A DNA stretch of 47,684 nucleotides from an uncultured Kangiella sp. (GTDB taxonomy: Bacteria > Pseudomonadota > Gammaproteobacteria > Enterobacterales > Kangiellaceae), in assembly GCA_950096615.1 (NCBI GenBank), contig CATNCP010000022.1, positions 1 to 47,684 on the forward strand, read 5' to 3'. The notes under the pieces are model-generated. The model saw only the letters and a program-made list of their open reading frames with translations. It ran no database searches and was not told where the DNA came from. Positions 3,180-32,212 of this stretch are shown here, one piece after another. A program made the position numbers and the translations under genes. Within the stretch, counting starts at the first letter, position 1. Every line of letters starts with the position of its first letter.

Positions 3180-3671
3180 TTAGTCTTCAGGATGGTTAAT
3201 AAACTTGAACCAATCATCGAGGCTTGATTTTATAAGAAACATCGAACAAATTAATATAGCTAACGCAAAAGCTGATATCCAAATAGCAAATAGAGTCAGG
3301 TAGTAAGAACCAAATAGACCTATAGTTAGTTGTGCTATAGCGGCACTAATTGTAGATAACACAGACCAAAATAAAAAATCACTTAAGTTTTTTAATGGAT
3401 CATAAAGTTTAATTGTAGAGTCTAATTTTTTTTGTTCATTAAATAATTCTTTATATTTATCATGATCGTAAACATTGTCTTTAAGTTTTATTAGAATAAA
3501 TGTTTTCAGAGAGAGCAGAAATCCCCCAACAGTTAAAAGCCCTGCAAAAAGATTGCCTCTTAAATTTTTCTCATAAAAAGCAACAAGCTCCATTCTATCT
3601 TGGACAAAAGAGTATAAGCATGAAATTAGCAAAGTTGCTAAAAAGGCACATACAAATAGTCTGATTATCAT
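3180..3671 (-). CDS. Four-TM membrane protein, second gene of a two-gene module
   Basis: This 163-residue protein has about four hydrophobic segments: residues 2-22, about 43-61, about 101-122 and about 126-147. A charged cytoplasmic-looking loop lies between the second and third. The start codon overlaps the stop of the upstream 310-residue gene (ATGA, 3668-3671), so the two are translationally coupled. The pair is very AT-rich, unlike the flanking core genes. A soluble protein coupled to a small four-TM partner recalls the Kiwa anti-phage system in general layout, but I cannot match either protein to a Kiwa family and the gene order is reversed. The function is unknown; membrane location is well supported. 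Confidence 0.65.
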   Translation of the reverse strand: MIIRLFVCAFLATLLISCLYSFVQDRMELVAFYEKNLRGNLFAGLLTVGGFLLSLKTFILIKLKDNVYDHDKYKELFNEQKKLDSTIKLYDPLKNLSDFLFWSVLSTISAAIAQLTIGLFGSYYLTLFAIWISAFALAILICSMFLIKSSLDDWFKFINHPED

Positions 3672-4600
3672 TTGATTTTTGCCTTGAAAGTAGATGAATT
3701 ATTCTCGCAGGCTTCTTTCAATTTATGGATAATCCAACTCTCCTTGAAGTCAGAAACATCTAAGTTGTTAATATGAGTAGCTACTTCATCATAATCAAAT
3801 TCACCAAAATTATCAGGGTTATTTTGTATTTTTATAATTCGGTCAACACCTTGATCATCGATGCCAAAAACTCTACCAGATTTAGTGTCAGATTTGTTGA
3901 CAGCTGAGACGATAGGTTGAATTAAATTATAAGGGTTAGCTTTTTTAATGAATGAAAATTTTCGCCTTTGCTTTCTAACAAAGCCAGATAGTTGGCCAAA
4001 TTCTTTTGAATCAGGTTCTAAATATGCTAAATCGATTTCTAGAGCTTTTATCCTTTCAAGTTCGGACAAAACTTCTGCTAGCTTATCTTTGCGAACAAGT
4101 ATTTCCCATTTAAAAAAACCTTTAAATATTTTTTTCACCTTTTTTTCTGCTTTATTAGGTAGGGTACCAGAAGCTATGAGTTCTTCTTTTTTTACCTTGC
4201 GTTTTAGATCTTTTAATTTCGCGAAGTGTTTTTTTATTAGATTTATACCTTGTCCAATACTACATGACTGATGATAGTGCTGGTAAAGTCCAACACCAGA
4301 ATCTTTATTTATCACAAAAAAGTTGAATTCCATTATATTCGAGTTTGCATCTAATTGATTCACACGAACTTTAAAAGATGTACCTGTTTCACGTAGTTCA
4401 CAAAAAGTTCTTTGGTTTTTTACTGTTACGATTAGGCCAAGATAGTAATTGTCATCTGAATGTGTGTCTACAAATAAAAATCGGCCAGCTTCATCAAATT
4501 GCTCATAATTATTTGACTTTTGCTCTAGATCCTCCATGACCTTATTTAACGGTATCGATGGCGGTGATTTTACTGAGAAACCTAAAAAGCGTACTAACAT
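3668..4600 (-). CDS. Unrecognised soluble protein, first gene of a two-gene module
   Basis: This 310-residue protein has no signal peptide or membrane segment. Residues 1-130 look like a compact alpha/beta domain, with the strand YYLGLIVTV, then FCELRETGTSF, then FNFFVINKDSG and GLYQHYHQSC. Residues 130-230 are Lys/Glu-rich and helical. The C-terminal part contains VFGIDDQG followed by an acidic region. AAAGGGGA lies four bases before ATG 4600, a good ribosome binding site. The low GC content, coupling to a membrane protein and location among small orphan genes suggest horizontally acquired cargo, plausibly defence-related. No family is recognised, so the function should be treated as unknown. 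Confidence 0.6.
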   Translation of the reverse strand: MLVRFLGFSVKSPPSIPLNKVMEDLEQKSNNYEQFDEAGRFLFVDTHSDDNYYLGLIVTVKNQRTFCELRETGTSFKVRVNQLDANSNIMEFNFFVINKDSGVGLYQHYHQSCSIGQGINLIKKHFAKLKDLKRKVKKEELIASGTLPNKAEKKVKKIFKGFFKWEILVRKDKLAEVLSELERIKALEIDLAYLEPDSKEFGQLSGFVRKQRRKFSFIKKANPYNLIQPIVSAVNKSDTKSGRVFGIDDQGVDRIIKIQNNPDNFGEFDYDEVATHINNLDVSDFKESWIIHKLKEACENNSSTFKAKIK

Positions 4601-23301: not shown

Positions 23302-23350
23302 TGGTGGCCCGGGGCAGAATTGAACTGCCGACACAAGGATTTTCAATCCT
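23302..23350 (-). repeat. attL: 49-bp copy of the tRNA-Phe 3' part
   Basis: Identical to 32137-32185, covering the CCA end, T arm and the anticodon stem-loop region of tRNA-Phe. It lacks the D arm and 5' acceptor strand, so it is not a functional tRNA. Confidence 0.92.
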
Positions 23351-23466
23351 AATTTACGAGTTTTATTGAGCTCTATGAAACTCTATTTCTCTATATAAAT
23401 CAAATAAATACTTGATATATGGCTATTTTTCGATCTATAGTGATTTCCATTGATTTCTACCTCGCC

Positions 23467-23486
23467 GGTAGCCCAGAGGTAGCCCA
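23467..23486 (+). repeat. Left arm-type integrase site candidates
   Basis: GGTAGCCCA occurs twice with an 11-bp period (23467-23475 and 23478-23486), just before the integrase gene. The same tandem pair occurs near attR. One helical turn of spacing and placement at both ends suit binding by the integrase N-terminal arm domain. Confidence 0.65.
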
Positions 23487-23546
23487 GGATTTTAAGTGAA
23501 AGATTTAAGGCCTCTTTCACCTATTAAGTTAAGGCGATTAATAACA

Positions 23547-24803
23547 ATGGAAACAACCTTCAGTTTCAGCAAATCAAAGCTGCTTAAAATTCAACTTCCC
23601 GAATCCGGAAGGGTGACCTACAAAGATAGTGAAGTGAAAGGTCTTCAATTGCGAGTGTCGTATACCGGTACTAAATCCTTTTTAGTTTATAAAAAGCTCA
23701 ACGGTAAACCCAAGCGAGTTACTTTAGGGCAGTTTCCATCTATGACTGTGGAGCATGCCAGAAAAAATGCTCAACAAGAAATAGCCAAAATGTTTGATGG
23801 CATAGATCCAAACCAGGCCAAGAAGGCGAAACGGAACAGGGGTGTGACTTTATCCCAATGCTTAGAAGACTACTTTCTGGTCCATAGGAGATTAGCGGAG
23901 AGTACCAAGCTGGATTATAGATCAGTAATTAAAAACAATATGTCTGAATGGATGAACCGTCCTCTATTGGATATTAAGCGAAATGATGTTGCGGCAAAGT
24001 TCAGACATATGAGCGCTGACAAGCCAGCTACTGCTAACAAGTGTATGCGGGTTTTAAGGGCTTTATTTAACTTTGCTCATGGAGAATATGAAGATGATAT
24101 GGGTAATCCAATGATATTGGACAACCCAGTAACAAGGATAAGCCATAACAGAGAGTGGAATAAGGTAGAGCGCCGGCAAGGGATTTTAAAGCCAAATGAC
24201 ATTAAACCTTGGTGGGCTGCCATCGATCGCATGGTCGAGGCAGAGCCATCACAGCATGATACGGCTGGGACCTTAGCTGATTACCTAAGATTTGTTCTTT
24301 GTACCGGTATGCGTCGAATGGAAGCCGCAACTATTAGATGGGAAAACATAGATTTTAGAAATGATTGCATGACAGTGGTTAGGACCAAGAATAAAAAGCC
24401 ACTAACGCTTCCAATAACGTCATATATCAAAGAAATGTTAAAAAGACGGCAAGCCGAGAAAGTTAGCGAGTATGTATTTAATGGCAGAGGAACCGCACAC
24501 CTAAAGGACCCAAAGAAAGCATTTGACCGTGTTGGGGAGATTTGTGGAATAAGAGTCACGGCTCATGATTTAAGAAGAACATTTATCAGCATAGCGGAAA
24601 GTCTTGATATATCACCCTACGCAGTTAAGAAATTAGTTAATCACTCAATGGGGGGCGACGTCACGGCGGGTTATATCGTCTGGGATGTTGAACGTTTAAG
24701 AGCTCCCATCGAGAAAATAAATGAATATATTTTAAAACAGGCTGGAGCTATTGAGACAGCGCCAGTCGTATCACTTGAAAACAAAAGGAAGAAGACAATA
24801 TGA
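23547..24803 (+). CDS. int: Tyrosine-recombinase integrase, P4 type
   Basis: This protein of about 418 residues has an arm-binding N-terminal domain (DSEVKGLQLRVSYTGTKSF), a helical core-binding domain and a catalytic domain. The active-site residues are present: Arg in CTGMRRMEA, His-x-x-Arg in AHDLRRTFI, His in VNHSMGG and the Tyr nucleophile in TAGYIVWD. It integrates the element at tRNA-Phe. I chose ATG 23547 because METTFSFSKSKLLKIQLPESG matches the usual family start; an in-frame GTG at 23496 has a fair AGGA site and would add 17 residues. The next gene overlaps its stop by four bases. Confidence 0.9.
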   Translation: METTFSFSKSKLLKIQLPESGRVTYKDSEVKGLQLRVSYTGTKSFLVYKKLNGKPKRVTLGQFPSMTVEHARKNAQQEIAKMFDGIDPNQAKKAKRNRGVTLSQCLEDYFLVHRRLAESTKLDYRSVIKNNMSEWMNRPLLDIKRNDVAAKFRHMSADKPATANKCMRVLRALFNFAHGEYEDDMGNPMILDNPVTRISHNREWNKVERRQGILKPNDIKPWWAAIDRMVEAEPSQHDTAGTLADYLRFVLCTGMRRMEAATIRWENIDFRNDCMTVVRTKNKKPLTLPITSYIKEMLKRRQAEKVSEYVFNGRGTAHLKDPKKAFDRVGEICGIRVTAHDLRRTFISIAESLDISPYAVKKLVNHSMGGDVTAGYIVWDVERLRAPIEKINEYILKQAGAIETAPVVSLENKRKKTI

Positions 24804-25030
24804 ACAATGCAGAACTAAAAACTCAACTTGATTCAATAGCAAAAGAATTACTAGATTACCATTCGCTAGTGAATGCCCTAAAAGATATAGGTGACCAAGC
24901 TACTAAAGGAAATGGTGAAATAACTACTAGTGATTGGGCCCCACGAGCTGATGCATTACATAAGGGAGCAAATGAAAGCTTTTCAAAAATCTACGAGAAG
25001 ATAGAATCTATTGAAGATAAATTAAATTAG
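24800..25030 (+). CDS. Hypothetical 76-residue element protein
   Basis: This small acidic, all-helical protein overlaps the integrase stop codon by four bases (ATGA), so its translation is coupled to the integrase. It has no Cys, signal peptide or membrane segment, and its C-terminus (SFSKIYEKIESIEDKLN) looks like a short coiled coil. Such a partner could modulate integration or excision, but I recognise no family. Confidence 0.55.
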   Translation: MNNAELKTQLDSIAKELLDYHSLVNALKDIGDQATKGNGEITTSDWAPRADALHKGANESFSKIYEKIESIEDKLN

Positions 25031-25036
25031 CAGTTG

Positions 25037-25090
25037 TAACCGGTCTAGGGTAGCTCCCGAAAGCCTGCCGCCTTACAGGTTGACCGGTTA
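25037..25090. other. Candidate three-way-junction structure
   Basis: TAACCGGTC (25037-25045) pairs perfectly with GACCGGTTA (25082-25090). Inside are two further hairpins: GGG/CCC around TAGCT, and AGCCTG/CAGGTT (one G-T pair) around eight bases. The 90-base gap between two genes is almost fully used by this fold. It could be a regulatory RNA, a terminator-antiterminator, or a DNA cruciform. No family match is known to me. Confidence 0.45.
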
Positions 25091-25120
25091 ATTATTCTAA
25101 GGCACATTTTAAGGTAAAGT

Positions 25121-25807
25121 ATGAGGCAGCTTAATACTGATAAAAAGACTATCACCCTACCGTTAGAGCTAGAACTCACTTCTGAACAATTGCGAGAGTT
25201 AAGGAAAATCATTCCAAAATCTGCATGCACGAAGCAGATTGAAACTATAAAGGATGGTTTAAAAGTGGCTTATTACGCCCACAAGGTGGGAAAGCAATGC
25301 TTAGATCATAAAGGGAAAAAGGAATATATAAAACCTTATAAGGATCTCGAAAAAAGTTTGTCTAGGTCCTTGGATGCTCTTGAGGAGATAGAGCCTGGTA
25401 GCTTAAGAGTTATTGATCATGAGTACTTCTTGTTACATCAAGAATACGTGGGGAATGGACTAAAAGGCGTGCTTTATGATGATCTAGACGACAGTATAGA
25501 GACTGTATTCTTAGAAGGTGATAGCGGGGTCTATGAGTCAATTATTAAGCTTAGAGCCGCAGTACAGTCTAGAGTTTTAGAAATAGAGCGTAACTGGACA
25601 AAGAAAAATTTCGAGTTTACAAATGCTGGAGTAATATTCACTAAATTCTTCAAAGAGGCATTCCCAGGTGAAGAGTTAAAATATAACTACAAAAAAGGAG
25701 AAAAATCATTATATAGCGACTTGATGAGTTATTTAATTAATCGTGTCCTAGGGTATGGGTTCAGTCCCCAAGGGCATATAAAAAAAATATTAGAGGCTGT
25801 GGATTGA
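25121..25807 (+). CDS. Hypothetical element protein
   Basis: This 228-residue protein is soluble and charged. I do not recognise it. The N-terminal part is Leu/Glu-rich (LPLELELTSEQLRELRKIIPK), the middle has IEPGSLRVIDHEYFLLHQEYVGNG, and the C-terminus has a helical region with YSDLMSYLINRVLGYG. It lies between the structured segment and the AlpA-like gene, where satellites often carry regulators or helper-interference genes. That context is suggestive only. Confidence 0.55.
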   Translation: MRQLNTDKKTITLPLELELTSEQLRELRKIIPKSACTKQIETIKDGLKVAYYAHKVGKQCLDHKGKKEYIKPYKDLEKSLSRSLDALEEIEPGSLRVIDHEYFLLHQEYVGNGLKGVLYDDLDDSIETVFLEGDSGVYESIIKLRAAVQSRVLEIERNWTKKNFEFTNAGVIFTKFFKEAFPGEELKYNYKKGEKSLYSDLMSYLINRVLGYGFSPQGHIKKILEAVD

Positions 25808-25917
25808 ACTAGACGTATACTTTAGTAAAAAAAACAACCTCAAATTACGCCTTCTATCTAACCCAGAGAAACGCAATCATTGCCTTGTAAATAATACAAA
25901 ACAGCAAGAGGCAATGT

Positions 25918-26217
25918 ATGAATCTATCAAACCCTATAGAGCTTTTGCACAAAGCAAAGAACACCCACGGTGACTTGTCACCTACTCAAGAGGCTGAATT
26001 CAGCAACTTAATAAACCTTGCATCCCAGTACCCTAATGCATTGATAACGAGAACAGTAACAGCATCATTGCTGGGGTTATCAATTAAATCCCTCGAGGCT
26101 TGGGCATCAAATGGTTCAAGAAACCTTCCTTATCAAAAGTGCTCAAGAAGTGTGAGATACCGTTTAGGTGATATTAAAGCCTATATGGATGCAAACACAA
26201 GAACACATACGTTATAG
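25918..26217 (+). CDS. AlpA/excisionase-like DNA-binding protein
   Basis: This 99-residue protein has a probable winged helix-turn-helix at residues 43-90. RTVTASLLGLSIKSLEAWASNG is the helix pair, and YQKCSRSVRYRLGDIKAYMDANT is the typical excisionase/MerR-like tail (K-x-x-R-x-V-R-Y-x-x-x-D-I-x-x-Y). This pattern is shared by AlpA-type regulators and excisionases of satellites. It may control excision or the rep operon. AAGAGG lies six bases before ATG 25918. Confidence 0.7.
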   Translation: MNLSNPIELLHKAKNTHGDLSPTQEAEFSNLINLASQYPNALITRTVTASLLGLSIKSLEAWASNGSRNLPYQKCSRSVRYRLGDIKAYMDANTRTHTL

Positions 26218-26226
26218 GAGGAGGGT

Positions 26227-26505
26227 ATGCAATATAAAAACCTAACAAAGCCTATTTCACCTAAGACCAAACACCAAAAGCAACTTATTACTTTATTGAG
26301 AAATAGAGGTACCAAGGGAGTTCTTGCACGGAATGGTGTCGATTATGGGTTTGGCAGTATCACTAAACTTGTCTCAAAACTCAAATTGGAACATAGGTTC
26401 AATATAACTAGCCAGAGAACGAGTTACTACGATGAGCTTGGTAATAAGACTTGGACGGTTAGATATATTTTACTTCCGGGTGTTTATATGGGGGAAGCTC
26501 AATGA
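26227..26505 (+). CDS. Small helix-turn-helix-like element protein
   Basis: This 92-residue basic protein lies nine bases after the AlpA-like gene behind a very strong site (GGAGGAGGG). KHQKQLITLLRNRGTKGVLARNG suggests a helix-turn-helix, and the C-terminal half ends in beta strands (KTWTVRYILLPGVYM), so the whole resembles a small winged-helix protein. Its stop overlaps the start of the RepA-like gene by four bases, which points to a role in replication or its control. The family is not certain. Confidence 0.6.
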   Translation: MQYKNLTKPISPKTKHQKQLITLLRNRGTKGVLARNGVDYGFGSITKLVSKLKLEHRFNITSQRTSYYDELGNKTWTVRYILLPGVYMGEAQ

Positions 26506-28199
26506 GTGAAAATAAGCATATTGGTTACATAAACCTGGGTGCTTATATTACAGATCTAAGGCTTTCTAATAGCGATAACTTTCATGGAGTACCTCTATTT
26601 TCTGTAAGGCACTGGTCTAGATCCCTGGGTGTATTATTAGGCCCTCTTGAAGCGCTCATGTCTTGCAAGCCTGGATGCTTAAGCAACGGTTTTAAGTTTG
26701 ATATTAATAACGGAGAGGAAGTAGACACTAGTCGGGCAAGATATGGTGCTGGGCAGCATGAATATTGTGGTTTCTTGATTGCAGGATCTATAACGCCAGA
26801 AATATTCAGACTGGAAAAGGCGATTGAGGACTATCATTGCTCTCTCGGAATCGACTCATGGTTATCGGACTTTTCAAGGTGCGGTCTTAAGTCAGAGTCA
26901 GAGAAAAAAGCAGTGCAAGATCATTTGGTAATATACACGGACTCAAAGCAAACAAACATTAAAGTCAGACTTCCAAAAATAAGAGATATGGTGAACGAGC
27001 CATTGCATGATAAATGGAGTTACCAAGAGCAAGAATATAAAAGCTGGGACGATGTAGTTAGTATGGTTGCTGACTCAATTAATGAATTTATAGCGTTAGC
27101 GCTGGAAAGGACAAAGACGCTGATTAGTGAGAATTATATATGTGCATTCAATCCATTGAGGGATGAAGTAGAGGCCGACGATGAAGGGGATTATTCATTT
27201 AAGGTATTAGACTCATTATCAACAGGACAATTTGGCTTAATAGTGGGGGAAGAGGGAATAGGAAAAACAATGCTTAGTCTAGAGTTGGCGTTAGAGGTTT
27301 CAAACCAAAAGGAGCAGCCCAGCACAGTGAGCAATCTCTTCCAAGTTGGTAAGCCTGGGGCAGTAATTGGGATTTTCCAAGAAGATGATCAGAAGGAAAT
27401 AAAGCAAAGATGCACTAATATTGGAGACCGGTTAGGCATTAAAAAGAGCCCATACTTTGGCGTCATGACCCATGAAGACTTTGATGGCTCTTTAACTCCA
27501 TCCGACCGGAAGGAAGCCATTCTAAAGTATTTAAGACAAGCAGTAGCCTACAAAGGTGCTCCAGGGTGGAGGGACCCTTCACTCATAATTATTGATCCTA
27601 TTGGTTTATTGATTGATGGTGATGAGTCTAGTGCGGAACCAATGAAAGATTTATCCGATTATCTTTCAATGATAGCAAGAAAATATAACTGCGCTGTGCT
27701 AGGAGTCCATCATCCAACAAAATCGGCAAAATTAAATCCTTATGGGCAAGGCGGGACTTTAGATCTTAATGCGACCGCAGGACATCCGATTCTAACCCGG
27801 TGCGCCAGGTGGGTGTTGAATATTAGCAGGGCTAAGAAAGGCGCTATAAAATTAAAGGTTACCAAGAGTAATAATGGTGAGCTTTCAGGAGATATTCATC
27901 AGTTAATAAAAGTTAACGAAAAAGGAGAGGCATTTAAAAGCGGCGAATGTTTTGCTGGGTTTGCTATTCATAAAGATGAGAGTAGCGAAAGCAACTTCGT
28001 GGAGGAAGTATATAAAGCCTTATTGAGTATTGAGCTCTCAAAGCATTCAAAGACAAAGGTAATAGAAGACCTTTGCTCTACCACCAGTTATAGCCGGAAT
28101 AAGATAAGAGAAGCGATAGATAAGCTAGAGGGTTGGGGGCGAATCAGATCAAACCGGACAGCGAAAGGGATTCAATTAGAAGTGGTAAGTAATGAATAG
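26502..28199 (+). CDS. RepA-like hexameric helicase (AAA_25) with extra domains
   Basis: This 565-residue protein has a RecA-like ATPase core in the middle. Walker A is GEEGIGKT in FGLIVGEEGIGKTMLSLELA, Walker B is SLIIIDPIGLLI, and VLGVHHPTK and a sensor-type segment follow, as in plasmid RepA/AAA_25 helicases. About 230 N-terminal residues (Cys/Trp-containing, no recognised domain) precede it; I see no clear primase motif. A C-terminal winged helix (VEEVYKALLS ... YSRNKIREAIDKLEGWGRI) probably binds DNA. It likely drives autonomous replication of the excised element from the iteron region just downstream. Confidence 0.78.
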   Translation: MSENKHIGYINLGAYITDLRLSNSDNFHGVPLFSVRHWSRSLGVLLGPLEALMSCKPGCLSNGFKFDINNGEEVDTSRARYGAGQHEYCGFLIAGSITPEIFRLEKAIEDYHCSLGIDSWLSDFSRCGLKSESEKKAVQDHLVIYTDSKQTNIKVRLPKIRDMVNEPLHDKWSYQEQEYKSWDDVVSMVADSINEFIALALERTKTLISENYICAFNPLRDEVEADDEGDYSFKVLDSLSTGQFGLIVGEEGIGKTMLSLELALEVSNQKEQPSTVSNLFQVGKPGAVIGIFQEDDQKEIKQRCTNIGDRLGIKKSPYFGVMTHEDFDGSLTPSDRKEAILKYLRQAVAYKGAPGWRDPSLIIIDPIGLLIDGDESSAEPMKDLSDYLSMIARKYNCAVLGVHHPTKSAKLNPYGQGGTLDLNATAGHPILTRCARWVLNISRAKKGAIKLKVTKSNNGELSGDIHQLIKVNEKGEAFKSGECFAGFAIHKDESSESNFVEEVYKALLSIELSKHSKTKVIEDLCSTTSYSRNKIREAIDKLEGWGRIRSNRTAKGIQLEVVSNE

Positions 28200-28200
28200 T

Positions 28201-28420
28201 TTTGCCGCTCAGTAGTTCGCCGATGGCAAAGCTATGCTGGCAAGTGTATAAGTCATTGATTTTATTATGAAAAGCCTTGCCGTTTGAACCGGCAAAACAT
28301 AAAGCGGAAAAGTTTGTATCTAATTGATTTGTATAGCTTTTATAGCTTGCCGCTTTGCCACCTATATATATTATAGTGTGTATAACACGACTATTAAGAT
28401 AGTCGCTATAACACACGTTA
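28201..28420. other. Candidate replication origin with iterons
   Basis: This non-coding stretch after the helicase gene holds about seven copies of a TTGCC core in both orientations (28202, 28226 reversed, 28240 reversed, 28277, 28291 reversed, 28348 and 28355). An AT-rich block (TATATATATTATAGTG) and a hairpin CGACTA/TAGTCG (28388-28405) flanked by direct TATAACAC repeats follow. This fits a satellite origin bound by the helicase or its partner. The small open frame on the minus strand here has no support. Confidence 0.55.
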
Positions 28421-28444
28421 ATAATATGTTTAGGCCAGAGGCTG

Positions 28445-28530
28445 GGGGAGGTGGGGGTCGTTTCGCCGGTTAAAAGAAACGGGTCCTTCCCAGGACTTTC
28501 GCTATAAGGGTGCGCGGCTTCGCGGAGTTT
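28445..28530 (+). other. cos-like packaging segment upstream of terS
   Basis: A GC-rich, non-coding segment in an AT-rich element sits directly before the terminase small-subunit gene. It contains GGGGGTCGTTTC, an inverted repeat CGTTTC/GAAACG (28459-28464 and 28476-28481), GGGTCCTTCCCAGGAC, TTTCGCTATAAGGG and CGCG-GCTT-CGCG. The tail resembles, from memory, cos regions of lambdoid phages. Position and base composition support a packaging site; the cut position cannot be told. Confidence 0.5.
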
Positions 28531-28581
28531 TCATTGTGCGTGGCAATTCTATGGTTGTTTATTATTACTACGGAGGTAGGC

Positions 28582-29055
28582 ATGATTTTAAATAGAGCTG
28601 AAATGGCTGGAGCAATGGGGATATCTAAGCCAACTTTGGATAGTTTAATCGAAGAAGGTTGTCCCTATATTACTAAAGGAGCCAAGGGGATCCCTTGGGA
28701 GTTTGAATCTAGTGTAGTTTTAGAATGGTATATTCAGCGTAATGTAGCAAAACGTAAACTAAAAGAACTGGATTCAGAAAAGGAGCTCTATAGACAACAA
28801 AAGCTCAGAGCGGACGCATTGTTAGCGGAACACAAGGCTGCAAAAGCTAAGAGTGAGGTAGCAACTATAGAGGAAATAGAAAGACAATTCGGTGAGCTTA
28901 AGCAAGAAATTATTAGTAAGTTTATAGCAGTTCCAGATAGAGCGGCCCCAATGGTGTTGAGGTTAAAAACGGAGAAAGAAATAAAGGTTACTTTATTAGA
29001 GATTATAGACCAGACACTACAAGAAATAGCCGATAGGGCTAAGAGTGCACCTTAG
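28582..29055 (+). CDS. Terminase small subunit (Nu1/TerS-like)
   Basis: This 157-residue protein begins with a winged helix-turn-helix (ILNRAEMAGAMGISKPTLDSLIEEGCPY), as in Nu1, the lambda terminase small subunit. WEFESSVVLEWYIQRN and a long coiled coil with EKELYRQQKLRADALLAEHKAA follow; the YxxxKLRAD-type segment is typical of Nu1-type proteins. It recognises cos DNA and directs packaging by the helper's large subunit. ATG 28582 is preceded by GGAGGTAGG; the frame is open further upstream but without a site. It ends one base from the convergent cargo gene. Confidence 0.8.
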   Translation: MILNRAEMAGAMGISKPTLDSLIEEGCPYITKGAKGIPWEFESSVVLEWYIQRNVAKRKLKELDSEKELYRQQKLRADALLAEHKAAKAKSEVATIEEIERQFGELKQEIISKFIAVPDRAAPMVLRLKTEKEIKVTLLEIIDQTLQEIADRAKSAP

Positions 29056-29056
29056 G

Positions 29057-29596
29057 CTACTCATCCTGGCTATTCCAAAAAGTCTTTCTGGTATCTAAAG
29101 TAAACGTATCACCATAAAAAGAAGAGTAGCCTATTAATAAATGAATTTGTTTCAAGTTGCGCTCTATTTGAGCTCTTGTATACTCGGAGTCTGAAATGGA
29201 TACTTTAATTAGTTCATGCTTGCTTCCCGGTAATAAAGAATAGTTGCTACCGAGGTGTATTGCATATTCTATTGTTAAGCATTCTAGTAAGACATCTTGA
29301 ATCTGATTAAATGCAATTTGTTTAAGGTCACCTTTAAAATCATTTTCACGAATGAAGACAGTTATATCGTCAATCCGAGCCGGTCCGATACCATTATTTA
29401 ATAGTATGAGAGTTACCTCTTTATCTCCATGATCCAAGAAAGTATTTAGATGAGGTGTAATTGAAAGACGGTTATGTTTACGTGTTTGGTATACCGTGAC
29501 TGTTGTTAAGATTAAAGCAGAGGTTCCAATGAGAATTTCAGCTGAATTATTTATAAACCACTCATATAAATGCAATATCATAGTAATAAAGTCCAT
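29057..29596 (-). CDS. Single-TM hypothetical cargo protein
   Basis: This 179-residue protein has one membrane helix near the N-terminus (ILIGTSALILTTVTVYQ), then a basic KHNRLSI stop-transfer and a beta-rich soluble domain (VTLILLNNGIGPARIDDITVFI). The NNGIGPARI type of segment is common in small membrane proteins of unknown function from mobile elements. It lies 82 bases downstream of the three-TM gene on the same strand, so it may be the third gene of the cargo operon. The function is unknown. Confidence 0.6.
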   Translation of the reverse strand: MDFITMILHLYEWFINNSAEILIGTSALILTTVTVYQTRKHNRLSITPHLNTFLDHGDKEVTLILLNNGIGPARIDDITVFIRENDFKGDLKQIAFNQIQDVLLECLTIEYAIHLGSNYSLLPGSKHELIKVSISDSEYTRAQIERNLKQIHLLIGYSSFYGDTFTLDTRKTFWNSQDE

Positions 29597-29678
29597 TAAT
29601 TATAAAGTAAGTACGGCATAGATAATCACAATTGGCTGAGAAATGAAATTGACTAATATTGTTATTATTAATAAATCG

Positions 29679-30872
29679 TTAACTAAACTTACAGAAATAA
29701 ATGTAGAGCAACGATAAGAAAACAATAATAGCAAATGACCTTATAATTAGTTTTGTAAGAGATATTTTTTTTTCTACACTAGTTTTGGCCTTACCTAAAT
29801 TCTCATCAAACTCATCCCCATATTTGTAGTCATCTTCTAATTGTAAATAGGAAAATGAATCATCGACAGATGTTTGTATAACTGAAAGAGTGCTGTGTTT
29901 GTAATAAAGTAGAATTAAAATGATAACTGCGTATAGAGTTGCAGAAACTTTTATAAGTGTAGAGCTTTCAGACTTATCAACAATAGAAATAACAACCGCA
30001 GCAATGGGTAAGCTTATGAGCTTAAACGCTACATCGGACACTATGTCGTTTAATTGATTAATAAAATCAAGTTTTCTTCTGGATATTTCATCTAAAAATT
30101 TGTTAAAAGAAAATTCATTAATATATAGATCGTATGCTAATCTGTATTGATTGAAAATCTTCTCCAAATTTGCCAATATTGATTCAACATTACTTTCATT
30201 GTTTGGTAATGACTTAAAATGGTCGTAAAGGACCTTGCAAAAAATTCTTCTCTTTTCTAATAAGTGAGATTCATTTTCTGTTGGTACCAGCTCTGAGTGA
30301 AGCGACTGAATTAAATCTAGATCGTTAGGCAGGCATTTATCGGTATAGTGAGATTTAAAGGCTACTTTATCTTCTCTTAAGATGTAGTATTCATGATGAC
30401 TATGTTTACTTTTATCTGTGTGGTCACCAACTTTATCAAAGATATCTAACAACAAGATGACTTTTTGGTAATTGACAATTAAAGTATTGTTTATGTCTTC
30501 GGAAGACAAGTAATCAATATCACAAATATAATATACTTCTGGTTCTTTAAGATGACAGTTCGAACTAACAAAATCTTGTAATGAAGAAAATATTCTTCCA
30601 CCATAGTCTAAAGACTCAACTGAAAAGCTAATATCACATCCAAGAAATTGCCTCAAATCATTTGCGTTTTGTATAGCTCTTTGACGTTTGTTGACCGTAA
30701 TTTGAGCAATTGGACAGCTTTCTTTGCTCTCTATTGCTTCGTCTATAAAATTTCTAAGATCACTGAAAGTCTCTTGGTTTAACTTTACATTAAACTCAAA
30801 GTCTTGCGCTCTTGAATGAGATTCTGTTGAATAATTTCTGATACAGTTAATCAGATTTGAAAAAGTAGCCAT
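29679..30872 (-). CDS. Three-TM hypothetical cargo protein
   Basis: This 397-residue protein has a soluble N-terminal region of about 280 residues and three C-terminal membrane helices: about 288-305 (LISLPIAAVVISIVD), about 314-333 and about 377-395. The soluble part contains VYYICDIDYLSSEDI and VILLLDIFDKVG, Asp-rich strand ends that could bind metal or nucleotide, but I see no named motif. The start overlaps the stop of the NdpA-like gene by one base (TAATG), so they are coupled. A sensor-like soluble partner and a membrane effector would fit an abortive defence module, by inference. Confidence 0.6.
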   Translation of the reverse strand: MATFSNLINCIRNYSTESHSRAQDFEFNVKLNQETFSDLRNFIDEAIESKESCPIAQITVNKRQRAIQNANDLRQFLGCDISFSVESLDYGGRIFSSLQDFVSSNCHLKEPEVYYICDIDYLSSEDINNTLIVNYQKVILLLDIFDKVGDHTDKSKHSHHEYYILREDKVAFKSHYTDKCLPNDLDLIQSLHSELVPTENESHLLEKRRIFCKVLYDHFKSLPNNESNVESILANLEKIFNQYRLAYDLYINEFSFNKFLDEISRRKLDFINQLNDIVSDVAFKLISLPIAAVVISIVDKSESSTLIKVSATLYAVIILILLYYKHSTLSVIQTSVDDSFSYLQLEDDYKYGDEFDENLGKAKTSVEKKISLTKLIIRSFAIIVFLSLLYIYFCKFS

Positions 30873-31915
30873 TACAAGTCAAGTTTATCCGCAAAGTCTT
30901 TCGGAACATTCGTTATCACTATTCGATCTTCTTCAGGGTCATAATTGACATATTCTTCATACGCCACGTGATCAAACGTTAAATTCCATCCATACTGATT
31001 ACTTTTATAAGAATAACGCTTGAGCTTCCTTAGCTCATTTAAATGAGGTACGAAACTGTCAGGGTATAATACATCATCCTGTTCTCCCATATATGTAATG
31101 TACCTATCAACATTATCATGATCAATTATACCTGCAATTGCTATTTGAGAAGCGGGATTATCATTCTCTCTTTGGGCTAGGCAATACTCTAAAATTGCTT
31201 GTTCCACATTTCTTCGTTCATCGGGAGAAAGGTCCATAACATCTGCCATATATTTCCTAGAGGCATCTATCATTCCTTTAGTTGACTGTTGTGCAGGGGA
31301 GAAATCCGTACAGCCTATAAAGTCTTGAAAGTATCGTGATACAGATTCAGCGCTTCCTCTTATGAAGTTAAGATAGGTTTGTATATTATTTTCTTCATTT
31401 GCGACTTCGTCACTAAGTAGAGTATTTGACCATTTTGTTAAATCAATTCTTGCGGCATACCTAAGTGTCTCTAGATCAACTGCCTTAAGTTGTTCAATAT
31501 CTAGATCTTCAATATTAAAAACATTTTTATGACTCAGCAAGAGTACCATTAAGTAATGAGTATCATTGTAAGAGTAGTGTAGAAATAGGACGAAGCCACC
31601 TTTCGCCATGGGTTCGGTTTTGACTTTGTTAACAAGCAGCTCCATTGCATTTTCAGTGAATTGAACGAAAGCTGGCTCTTGCATTTCCATTCTTACAAAA
31701 TACTCTTTTAAGTGGATCGGAAACCTATAAACGTTTTCATTGTCATTGAATGAGCCCGTCGCCTTTGATTTTTTGCTGTAAGCTGTTTGCAGGGCTTCGG
31801 CAAAGCGTGTAAGGGCTCCGCTATTTGTCTGTATAGGGTGGCCTTTCCTATATTCAGCATCGGTGGAGCGAGGTTCTTTTTCCAGCTTATGTATTATGGC
31901 ATTTATTATTCTCAT
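30872..31915 (-). CDS. NdpA/YejK-like nucleoid-associated protein (NA37)
   Basis: This 347-residue protein matches the NA37 family of nucleoid-associated proteins (NdpA, YejK). The N-terminus reads IINAIIHKLEKEP with a typical early His. FVRMEMQEPAFVQFTENAME, then GGFVLFLHYSYNDTHYLMVLLLSHK, then AARIDLTKW and LNFIRGSAESVSRYFQDFIGC are all in the family order. The chromosomal type binds nucleoid DNA; copies in mobile elements are poorly understood. AAGGAAGC precedes the start. It heads a leftward operon with a membrane protein, which is unlike the housekeeping setting and suggests defence or competition. Confidence 0.75.
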   Translation of the reverse strand: MRIINAIIHKLEKEPRSTDAEYRKGHPIQTNSGALTRFAEALQTAYSKKSKATGSFNDNENVYRFPIHLKEYFVRMEMQEPAFVQFTENAMELLVNKVKTEPMAKGGFVLFLHYSYNDTHYLMVLLLSHKNVFNIEDLDIEQLKAVDLETLRYAARIDLTKWSNTLLSDEVANEENNIQTYLNFIRGSAESVSRYFQDFIGCTDFSPAQQSTKGMIDASRKYMADVMDLSPDERRNVEQAILEYCLAQRENDNPASQIAIAGIIDHDNVDRYITYMGEQDDVLYPDSFVPHLNELRKLKRYSYKSNQYGWNLTFDHVAYEEYVNYDPEEDRIVITNVPKDFADKLDL

Positions 31916-32051
31916 TTTGCTTCCTTGAAAATTTCTTTTTAAGAACTCTTACATACTTTTAATGAAAAAACAAATGCAGAAGCTGCTGACGACGCTAACA
32001 AATAAGCAATAACAGTAAAATTCTGAAATTATAAACTTTATAAGATGATTG

Positions 32052-32071
32052 AGTAGCCCATAGGTAGCCCA
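32052..32071 (+). repeat. Right arm-type integrase site candidates
   Basis: AGTAGCCCA (32052-32060) and GGTAGCCCA (32063-32071) repeat with an 11-bp period and the same orientation as the left pair. They lie 66 bases from attR. Confidence 0.65.
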
Positions 32072-32095
32072 CTGAATAAATAATAGGCAATAAAA

Positions 32096-32119
32096 AAGGC
32101 GTTACAGATGTAACGCCTT
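32096..32119 (-). terminator. Element-supplied terminator for tRNA-Phe
   Basis: AAGGCGTTAC pairs perfectly with GTAACGCCTT around four bases. On the minus strand a T-run follows (T complement of 32092-32097). It lies 18 bases past the tRNA CCA end and replaces the original terminator left beyond attL. Confidence 0.8.
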
Positions 32120-32136
32120 GTTTTATATAATAAAGT

Positions 32137-32185
32137 TGGTGGCCCGGGGCAGAATTGAACTGCCGACACAAGGATTTTCAATCCT
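32137..32185 (-). repeat. attR: 49-bp repeat inside tRNA-Phe
   Basis: Identical to attL at 23302-23350. It makes up the 3' portion of the intact tRNA gene, so integration kept the tRNA whole. Confidence 0.92.
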
Positions 32186-32212
32186 CCGCTCTACCAACTG
32201 AGCTACCAGGCC
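32137..32212 (-). tRNA. tRNA-Phe (GAA anticodon)
   Basis: The 76-base minus-strand gene begins GGCCTGGTAGCTCAG and ends TTCAATTCTGCC...CCA with the CCA encoded. The acceptor stem GGCCTGG pairs with CCGGGCC (one G-T). The anticodon loop TTGAAAA gives GAA. It is the integration target of the element. Confidence 0.95.

Follow-up and report, generated by a model that had tools for sequence, protein, structure and literature searches.

Can a chromosomal island in which no structural phage gene is recognised travel in the particles of a phage, and would a terminase gene beside a cos-like site give it the means? The question is raised by positions 23302-32185 of a 47,684-nt stretch of DNA (hereafter the window; contig CATNCP010000022.1, assembly GCA_950096615.1) from an uncultured Kangiella species. 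An earlier interpretation, made from the letters and open reading frames (ORFs) and called below the sequence-only reading, had seen here a phage-satellite-like island in a tRNA-Phe gene. We consider it very probable that the island is an integrative phage satellite packaged by way of cos. This interpretation draws support from a sister island, an empty integration site, the absence of structural genes, and an arrangement of cos motifs and the gene for the terminase small subunit (TerS) that matches that of cos phages.

As first proposed, the island is bounded by a 49-bp att repeat within tRNA-Phe: the two direct copies are 100% identical, the right one being the 3' part of the tRNA gene, and the repeat unit is 8,835 bp (Table 1). 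A sister island lies in Kangiella aquimarina DSM 16071 (G006, NZ_KB893650.1), in the same tRNA and between the same 49-bp repeats; its unit measures 11,064 bp, and it shares the core genes but not the cargo. Paired GTAGCCCA repeats stand inside both ends of both islands, as expected of integrase arm sites, which they probably are. The core genes run rightward in the order int, 76-aa gene, 228-aa gene, AlpA-like gene, 92-aa gene, helicase gene, an intergenic stretch with iterons and cos, and terS, and are followed by three leftward cargo genes (G+C 0.40 in the core and 0.34 in the cargo, against 0.45 in the flanks). The sequence-only reading saw no structural phage genes, and indeed none of the 10 island proteins matches a capsid, portal, tail or large terminase subunit (TerL) family in Pfam, PHROGs or NCBIfam. 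Elsewhere in the same genome there is a short match to the HK97-type capsid family (G000:C12:21187-21477), perhaps a prophage remnant.

Cos motifs and the terminase small subunit

Upstream of terS the motifs GGGTCCTTCC and TTGTGCGTGG, both exact, start 53 nt apart. Searched for with at most two mismatches in the first and one in the second, at separations of 40-75 nt, the pair occurs once on the two strands of the 47.7-kb window, where 0.025 would be expected per strand. The sister island has one pair, likewise 53 nt apart, in which the second motif contains a single mismatch. When the pattern was relaxed so as to cover the two islands, it was present only in those two among 20 genomes of the genus, and its reversed control gave no match. 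Among 66 phage loci (60 from IMG/VR and six named stretches, with some phages included twice and several cut before cos) the pair was seen on the TerS strand in 20, always 54 or 55 nt apart; two of these have an additional pair on the opposite strand at another distance. The first motif was also traced on its own. Of the 60 IMG/VR loci, all with a related TerS, 45 extend 200 bp or more upstream, and in these the motif stands upstream of TerS exactly in 16 and with at most one mismatch in 19, against none of 44 control stretches. Counted over 43 distinct upstream sequences, it is exact within 200 bp in 15.

These motifs can be placed with respect to phage ends. GGGTCCTTCC is found close to the right end in PPpW-3, Mano and Arya, and Mica has it in its last 300 bases; FoX1 has AGGTACTTCC, and in ep3 and ECO1230-10 terS is preceded by GGTACTTCC. 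The opposite side of the ends has T[GC]TGCGTGG, which in Mano and PPpW-3 takes a degenerate form. In the phages whose TerS is closest (30 records, counting duplicates, at 30-38% identity) terS is often about 100 bp from the start of the record. In lambda, GGGTCCTTTCC, which we take to be cosQ, stands 30 nt before the right end, at the distance where GGGTCC lies. The Mano motif is 32 nt from the right end, with bases 1-7 annotated as cohesive end. The two record ends of PPpW-3 have 13 nt in common, and on this account the cosN of the island is predicted, by analogy, at about 28508-28522. Termination of lambda packaging needs cosQ, and the spacing of cosN and cosB matters, according to the portion of PMC4856287 consulted. 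The segment as a whole has the layout of a lambda-type cos, and the GC-rich cos-like segment of the first interpretation is borne out by an exact pair of cosQ-type and cosB-type motifs, found once in the window at nearly the spacing seen in cos phages.

The island TerS matches the PHROG terminase small subunit (E 2.1e-20) and aligns with phage TerS over nearly its whole length, so the island does have a terS gene of its own; that the protein might instead be assigned to another family, which the sequence-only reading had named as an outcome that would count against it, did not hold, since it falls among the small subunits of phage terminases. A FastTree tree built on 58 sequences joins the two island TerS to each other (support 0.81) and draws them beside a clade of cos phages, a placement given without a support value. 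A GpA-type TerL lies downstream of TerS in all 60 IMG/VR loci.

The island proteins differ from these phage relatives at the C-terminus. An acidic tail, scored where at least 14 aa with a net acidic charge of at least 4 (median 9 in phages) follow the conserved Leu, is present in all 47 of the distinct close phage TerS that were counted once five loci of uncertain end had been dropped. Both island TerS lack it, with 11 and 8 aa after the Leu and net values of 0 and 1. The island TerS might therefore act like the Rpp proteins of phage-inducible chromosomal islands (PICIs), forming mixed complexes with a helper TerS that supplies the TerL-binding part, so that packaging would be diverted from the phage cos to the island cos and the helper hindered. 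The C-terminal TerL-binding part of lambda TerS (described in the excerpt of PMC6739421 available) and a match between RppC and the TerS profile (E 2.8e-6), located in the DNA-binding domain, fit such a role. However, the island protein is alignable with phage TerS along almost all of its length, its PDB match to lambda TerS is much better than that to RppC (2.7e-5 vs 0.24), and the island cosB motif is the phage motif, whereas the PICI EcCICFT073 is without phage cosB. Furthermore, among more distant TerS printed beside a TerL, six of eight (L210, L211, L234, L237, L238 and L241) have no acidic tail by eye, so the tail is dispensable for TerL in general and was rejected as a general mark of TerL partnership; 19 loci, mostly longer matches, were examined in this distant set, most of the others being short helix-turn-helix matches of about 50-60 residues. 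We regard an Rpp-like role as possible but rather doubtful.

The sister island and the integration site

The sister island is the only close relative found. A helicase search of 149 genomes, the window's own included, gave one other nearly full-length match, in K. aquimarina (55%), and two weak partial ones; one search of genome contigs gave no match, and another matched the K. aquimarina island alone. The weak helicase matches in G048 and G066 were set aside, as on ORF reading they look like other islands with generic AAA_25 genes. Between the two islands the core proteins differ widely in conservation (Table 1), and the cargo DNA has a single 18-nt match in common.

Such a locus might instead be a decayed cos prophage from which the structural genes were lost and terS and cos left behind, as the phage-like TerS and cos could suggest. 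Against this, the same compact layout is present in both islands despite identities of 53% for the helicase and 40% for TerS, and must for that reason be old and kept; the genes are open; and a search at E 1e-5 matched the helicase to none of the phage or plasmid records. We therefore think a prophage remnant highly improbable. The other tRNA-Phe loci of the genus bear on the same question. At the 16 that were read (from 18 other genomes, G002 and G012 being left out) blastn found no island DNA. The left flank abuts the 49 bp in eight, ends within 8 nt of it in three and is unmatched in five; there is accordingly no prophage at 11 of the 16, and alignment of the joined flanks shows an empty site in four genomes. 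A sister island and the empty site are thus both found in related genomes, where the sequence-only reading had proposed to look. The larger prophage that it had allowed for, with capsid and tail genes since lost, is absent from the 11 loci whose left flank was matched.

Four loci (L034, L035, L036 and L041) have second, partial copies of the flank beside the empty site, upstream of tRNA-Phe, two of them (L034 and L036) with 17 nt of att; these are possible scars of earlier insertions. Two islands beside tRNA-Ser genes were also noticed. The first, L252, in another family of the class (G588:C8, a 6882-bp contig, 3211-3832 on the minus strand), has a terS-like gene preceded by GGGTCCTTCC and GGGTGCGCGCGGTCGCGG; the second cos motif is absent, no TerL is recognised on the contig, and the island possibly uses a similar packaging trick. 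The second, L253 (G132:C23, 6059-14164), contains a TerS relative (E 4e-23) besides an integrase-like gene, with a 344-aa protein without assigned identity further on; it may be another satellite type.

Replication, regulation and cargo

The RepA-like helicase of the sequence-only reading is upheld by a match to AAA_25 (E 2.5e-18) and a weak PDB profile match to RepA (E 0.0018). No family was recognised for its N-terminal 230 aa, and the predicted fold was not used, its mean predicted local distance difference test score being 45.6. The candidate origin behind the helicase gene also stood up: seven TTGCC[GA]/[CT]GGCAA sites lie within 290 bp, where the density in the remainder of the island would give 0.24 and 2000 Markov shuffles gave four at most, the motif having been noticed first and counted afterwards. 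Both islands have seven iterons after the helicase gene, in near register, and starting at the second site their spacings differ by no more than 1 nt. Beside them lies a 64-nt block which is identical in the two islands although their helicases share 53%, and the DNA of 28354-28430 folds better than all 200 shuffles (z -3.9).

Of the remaining core proteins, the integrase is confirmed as such by PF00589 (E 5e-17) and the arm domain PF13356 (E 4.7e-15), the P4 type having been proposed at the outset. The AlpA-like regulator is less secure, with a PHROG excisionase/regulator match (E 0.001) in its favour and HTH_17 only below cut-off (19.6 vs 27 bits). A profile of the 92-aa protein matched in three of 394 genomes of the order, namely the two islands and, weakly, G012; the last looks like an unrelated island beside tRNA-Met and was rejected as a family member.

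Between int and alpA lies the int-alpA RNA of Rfam, 44 nt of which (25039-25082) are identical in the sister island, where the copy scores below gathering. RNA folding of 25028-25120 was no better than that of shuffles (z -0.74), and the 44-nt block has a single 9-nt match of complementarity, in the style of P4 CI, to the rest of the island. RF02996 is above cut-off in at least 38 of 369 genomes of the class, a lower bound, as this genome-wide search with its stricter filter did not list the window's own copy. We read 40 of the 51 places listed in that search. TerS profile matches at E < 0.001 stand beside the RNA in three, and a Mano-type TerL in none at E 0.001; a fourth TerS match, L172 (0.0084), is the same frame as its AlpA-like match. 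Because so few of the 40 places have TerS, and because one (L204) has probable tail genes, the RNA must extend beyond elements of the present kind and was rejected as a satellite marker; it seems to occur in prophage-like elements too.

Some of these places deserve mention in their own right. In L204 the RNA occurs together with an exact GGGTCCTTCC, and the ORFs read there include a terS-like gene and genes that are probably for tail proteins. L198 and L199 are islands with the RNA that look satellite-like on the same basis, with a terS-like and a primase-like gene and no structural genes by eye. In L198, as in L204, an exact GGGTCCTTCC precedes the TerS-like frame and the second motif is absent; L199 has no GGGTCCTTCC within one mismatch and its TerS has no acidic tail. 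L171 has one GGGTCCTTCC but no TerS. Together, L252, L198 and L199 (whose genes are named from ORF reading and not from family searches) point to a wider distribution, across the class, of islands in which TerS is present but no TerL is in view.

Cargo was correctly anticipated, in the form of three minus-strand genes after terS. The NA37 protein and its 397-aa neighbour are, judged by their profiles, a pair related to the DS-1 anti-phage system and not members of it, scoring 113.8 vs 330 bits for DS1_1 and 78.3 vs 315 bits for DS1_2. PADLOC matched none of the three cargo proteins, and a literature search on DS-1 found no relevant paper. The sister island carries instead PRTase-CE, ORC-CDC6-like, CARF-like and N6-methylase-like proteins, a set that resembles a predicted conflict system. 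A role of the cargo in anti-phage defence is probable. Such exchanged, defence-like cargo would also be expected of an ordinary integrative defence island that transfers by another route and carries TerS and cos as neutral baggage. Drift should then have erased the cos motifs and their spacing, which are kept in two islands with TerS only 40% identical, and no conjugation or transposition family is above cut-off among the 10 proteins in the three databases searched; this explanation is, in our view, very unlikely.

Table 1. Coordinates of the island and its features in the window; identities are those of the encoded proteins to their counterparts in the sister island.
Feature	Position	Strand	Remarks
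Island	23302-32185		between exact 49-bp direct repeats at tRNA-Phe 3' end
attL, copy of tRNA-Phe 3' end, 49 bp	23302..23350		repeat search
Left GTAGCCCA pair (23468, 23479)	23468..23486		probable integrase arm sites; sister island also paired near both ends
Tyrosine integrase, 418 aa	23547..24803	+	Pfam, PHROGs; 84% identical
76-aa gene	24800..25030	+	ATGA overlap with int; likeness to PICMI iolg in position only; 72% identical
int-alpA RNA, Rfam RF02996	25038..25102	+	43 bits vs gathering 35.8; between int and alpA
228-aa protein	25121..25807	+	no family match (Pfam, PHROGs, NCBIfam); fast-diverging; 29% identical
AlpA-like helix-turn-helix protein, 99 aa	25918..26217	+	88% identical over 94 aa
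Conserved small protein, 92 aa	26227..26505	+	between alpA and helicase; 74% identical
RepA-like AAA_25 helicase, 565 aa	26502..28199	+	weak C-terminal winged-helix matches; 53% identical
Candidate replication origin	28202..28360		seven TTGCC[GA]/[CT]GGCAA iterons
64-nt block identical in both islands	28354..28417		AT-rich, hairpin
cosQ-type motif GGGTCCTTCC	28481..28490	+	
Predicted cosN (nicking site)	28508..28522	+	by analogy with PPpW-3, Mano and lambda ends
cosB-type motif TTGTGCGTGG	28534..28543	+	probable TerS-binding site
Terminase small subunit TerS, 157 aa	28582..29055	+	likely start ATG 28582; no acidic C-terminal tail; 40% identical
179-aa cargo protein	29057..29596	-	weak match to phrog_35671 (unknown function)
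397-aa cargo protein	29679..30872	-	related to NCBIfam DS1_2 anti-phage protein, below cut-off
347-aa NA37 (YejK-like) protein	30872..31915	-	also related to DS1_1 anti-phage protein, below cut-off
Right GTAGCCCA pair	32053..32071		probable arm sites
tRNA-Phe (gaa)	32137..32212	-	attR is its 49-bp 3' part, 32137-32185

Life cycle, helper and relation to known satellites

For the satellite, we infer from sequence a cycle of excision, replication, TerS binding, packaging, transfer and defence. On infection by a helper, the AlpA-like protein and the integrase would excise the island at the 49-bp att sites, and the helicase would initiate replication at the iterons behind its gene, giving concatemers. 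The island TerS would bind the cosB motif at 28534 and recruit the helper large terminase to cosN, whereupon island DNA would be cut and packaged into helper heads. Between infections the minus-strand cargo may protect the host from phages, with cargo being swapped between islands.

Several observations weigh against the satellite interpretation. No helper has been found. The TerS is tail-less, so that its working with a helper TerL is not assured. Only two of 20 genomes of the genus carry the island, and viral contigs contained no relative of it by close-relative and exact-pattern scans, a profile scan aimed at a larger family of the helicase giving two distant helicases only. Lastly, 26 of the 45 phage loci have no GGGTCCTTCC within one mismatch, some using GGTACTTCC.

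As to the helper, it should encode a GpA-type TerL and have this type of cos. In 20 genomes of the genus no GpA-type TerL (PF05876) is above cut-off, the three short matches below it each having an internal stop; the island's own genome has no match, and a search with the Mano TerL in 40 genomes of the family gave one 37% match, in G037, and none in the genus. A virulent helper, as for PICMI115, is likely in view of this absence from the genus. Multiples of the two island units meet at 44.2 kb (5 x 8,835 = 44,175 bp; 4 x 11,064 = 44,256 bp in the sister). The genomes of five related cos phages measure 41.9-44.8 kb and the 30 records with the closest TerS 33.1-44.8 kb, which puts 44.2 kb near the upper end; with two islands only, the agreement may be a coincidence. 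One could go further and see here a new family of cos-type satellites, with whole-number concatemers in unaltered helper heads, a tail-less TerS needing helper TerS, and silencing by the int-alpA RNA, which would then be the switch RNA of such elements as CI RNA is that of P4. We think this larger proposal unlikely.

How does the island compare with satellites already described? The general features of satellites are present, namely integrase, regulation and replication genes without structural genes, and a packaging signal is held in common with a phage type at the level of sequence. P4-like satellites are defined by a P4 alpha-type primase and the capsid-size genes sid and psu, none of which is matched here in Pfam, PHROGs or NCBIfam; nor are the capsid genes and TerL that a cf-PICI would encode. 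In the cos phages of the PPpW-3, Mano, Jilinvirus and Foxunavirus kinds a cosQ-like motif, a cosB-like motif and terS follow one another as they do here, in order as well as in spacing, but these phages differ in having TerL, structural genes and an acidic-tailed TerS.

Close parallels exist with the PICMIs (phage-inducible chromosomal minimalist islands) of Vibrionaceae, as described in the available part of PMC10803314. These too are marine and small, with an int overlapped via ATGA by a small gene (iolg, there called essential for excision), followed by alpA, a small gene and a replication gene; they have no structural genes, and PICMI115 has a defence gene (PMC10803314). The PICMI model, however, requires fis and a DUF3987/DUF5906 primase, and PICMI115 is reported in that part of the paper to have no terS, no cos found and random ends suggesting headful packaging (PMC10803314). 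The island, in contrast, is integrated at tRNA-Phe and not beside fis, has an AAA_25 helicase and no Pfam match to DUF3987 or DUF5906 up to E 1, and possesses cos and TerS.

In EcCICFT073, a Gram-negative PICI, the core runs rightward, the regulator is of the AlpA type, the origin sits just after the replication gene and packaging is by cos (PMC6092414, in the part consulted); the rightward core, AlpA-like protein, candidate origin and probable cos packaging of the island recall these. EcCICFT073 differs in having two cos sites without phage cosB and in using Rpp with helper TerS (PMC6092414 and PMC6739421, likewise), where the island has a single cos whose cosB motif is of the phage type, a TerS relative of nearly full length and a RepA-like helicase in place of pri-rep. 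The PICI logic invoked by the sequence-only reading stands as an analogy. The repeats and their position 3' of the replication gene fit a PICI-type origin, the core is rightward with three cargo genes leftward, the AlpA-like protein matches below cut-off and the replication protein is a RepA-like AAA_25 helicase; PICI membership does not follow from these observations. VEIMEs and tycheposons, also integrative and also from marine bacteria, are elements thought to be carried in phage particles (PMC10803314, in part). The island lacks two features of PICMIs, and we regard it as a phage satellite of a new variety. The literature searched, with queries that did not include the genus name itself, contained no Kangiella satellite, and papers on VEIMEs and tycheposons did not turn up in it.

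For many satellites the packaging signal has gone unrecognised or is difficult to locate, and here one is legible from sequence, giving testable predictions of cosQ, cosN, cosB and the type of helper terminase. The int-alpA RNA, for which a limited literature search found no functional account, gains a context. Finally, the two islands would exemplify a satellite-like core that is retained while defence-like cargo changes.

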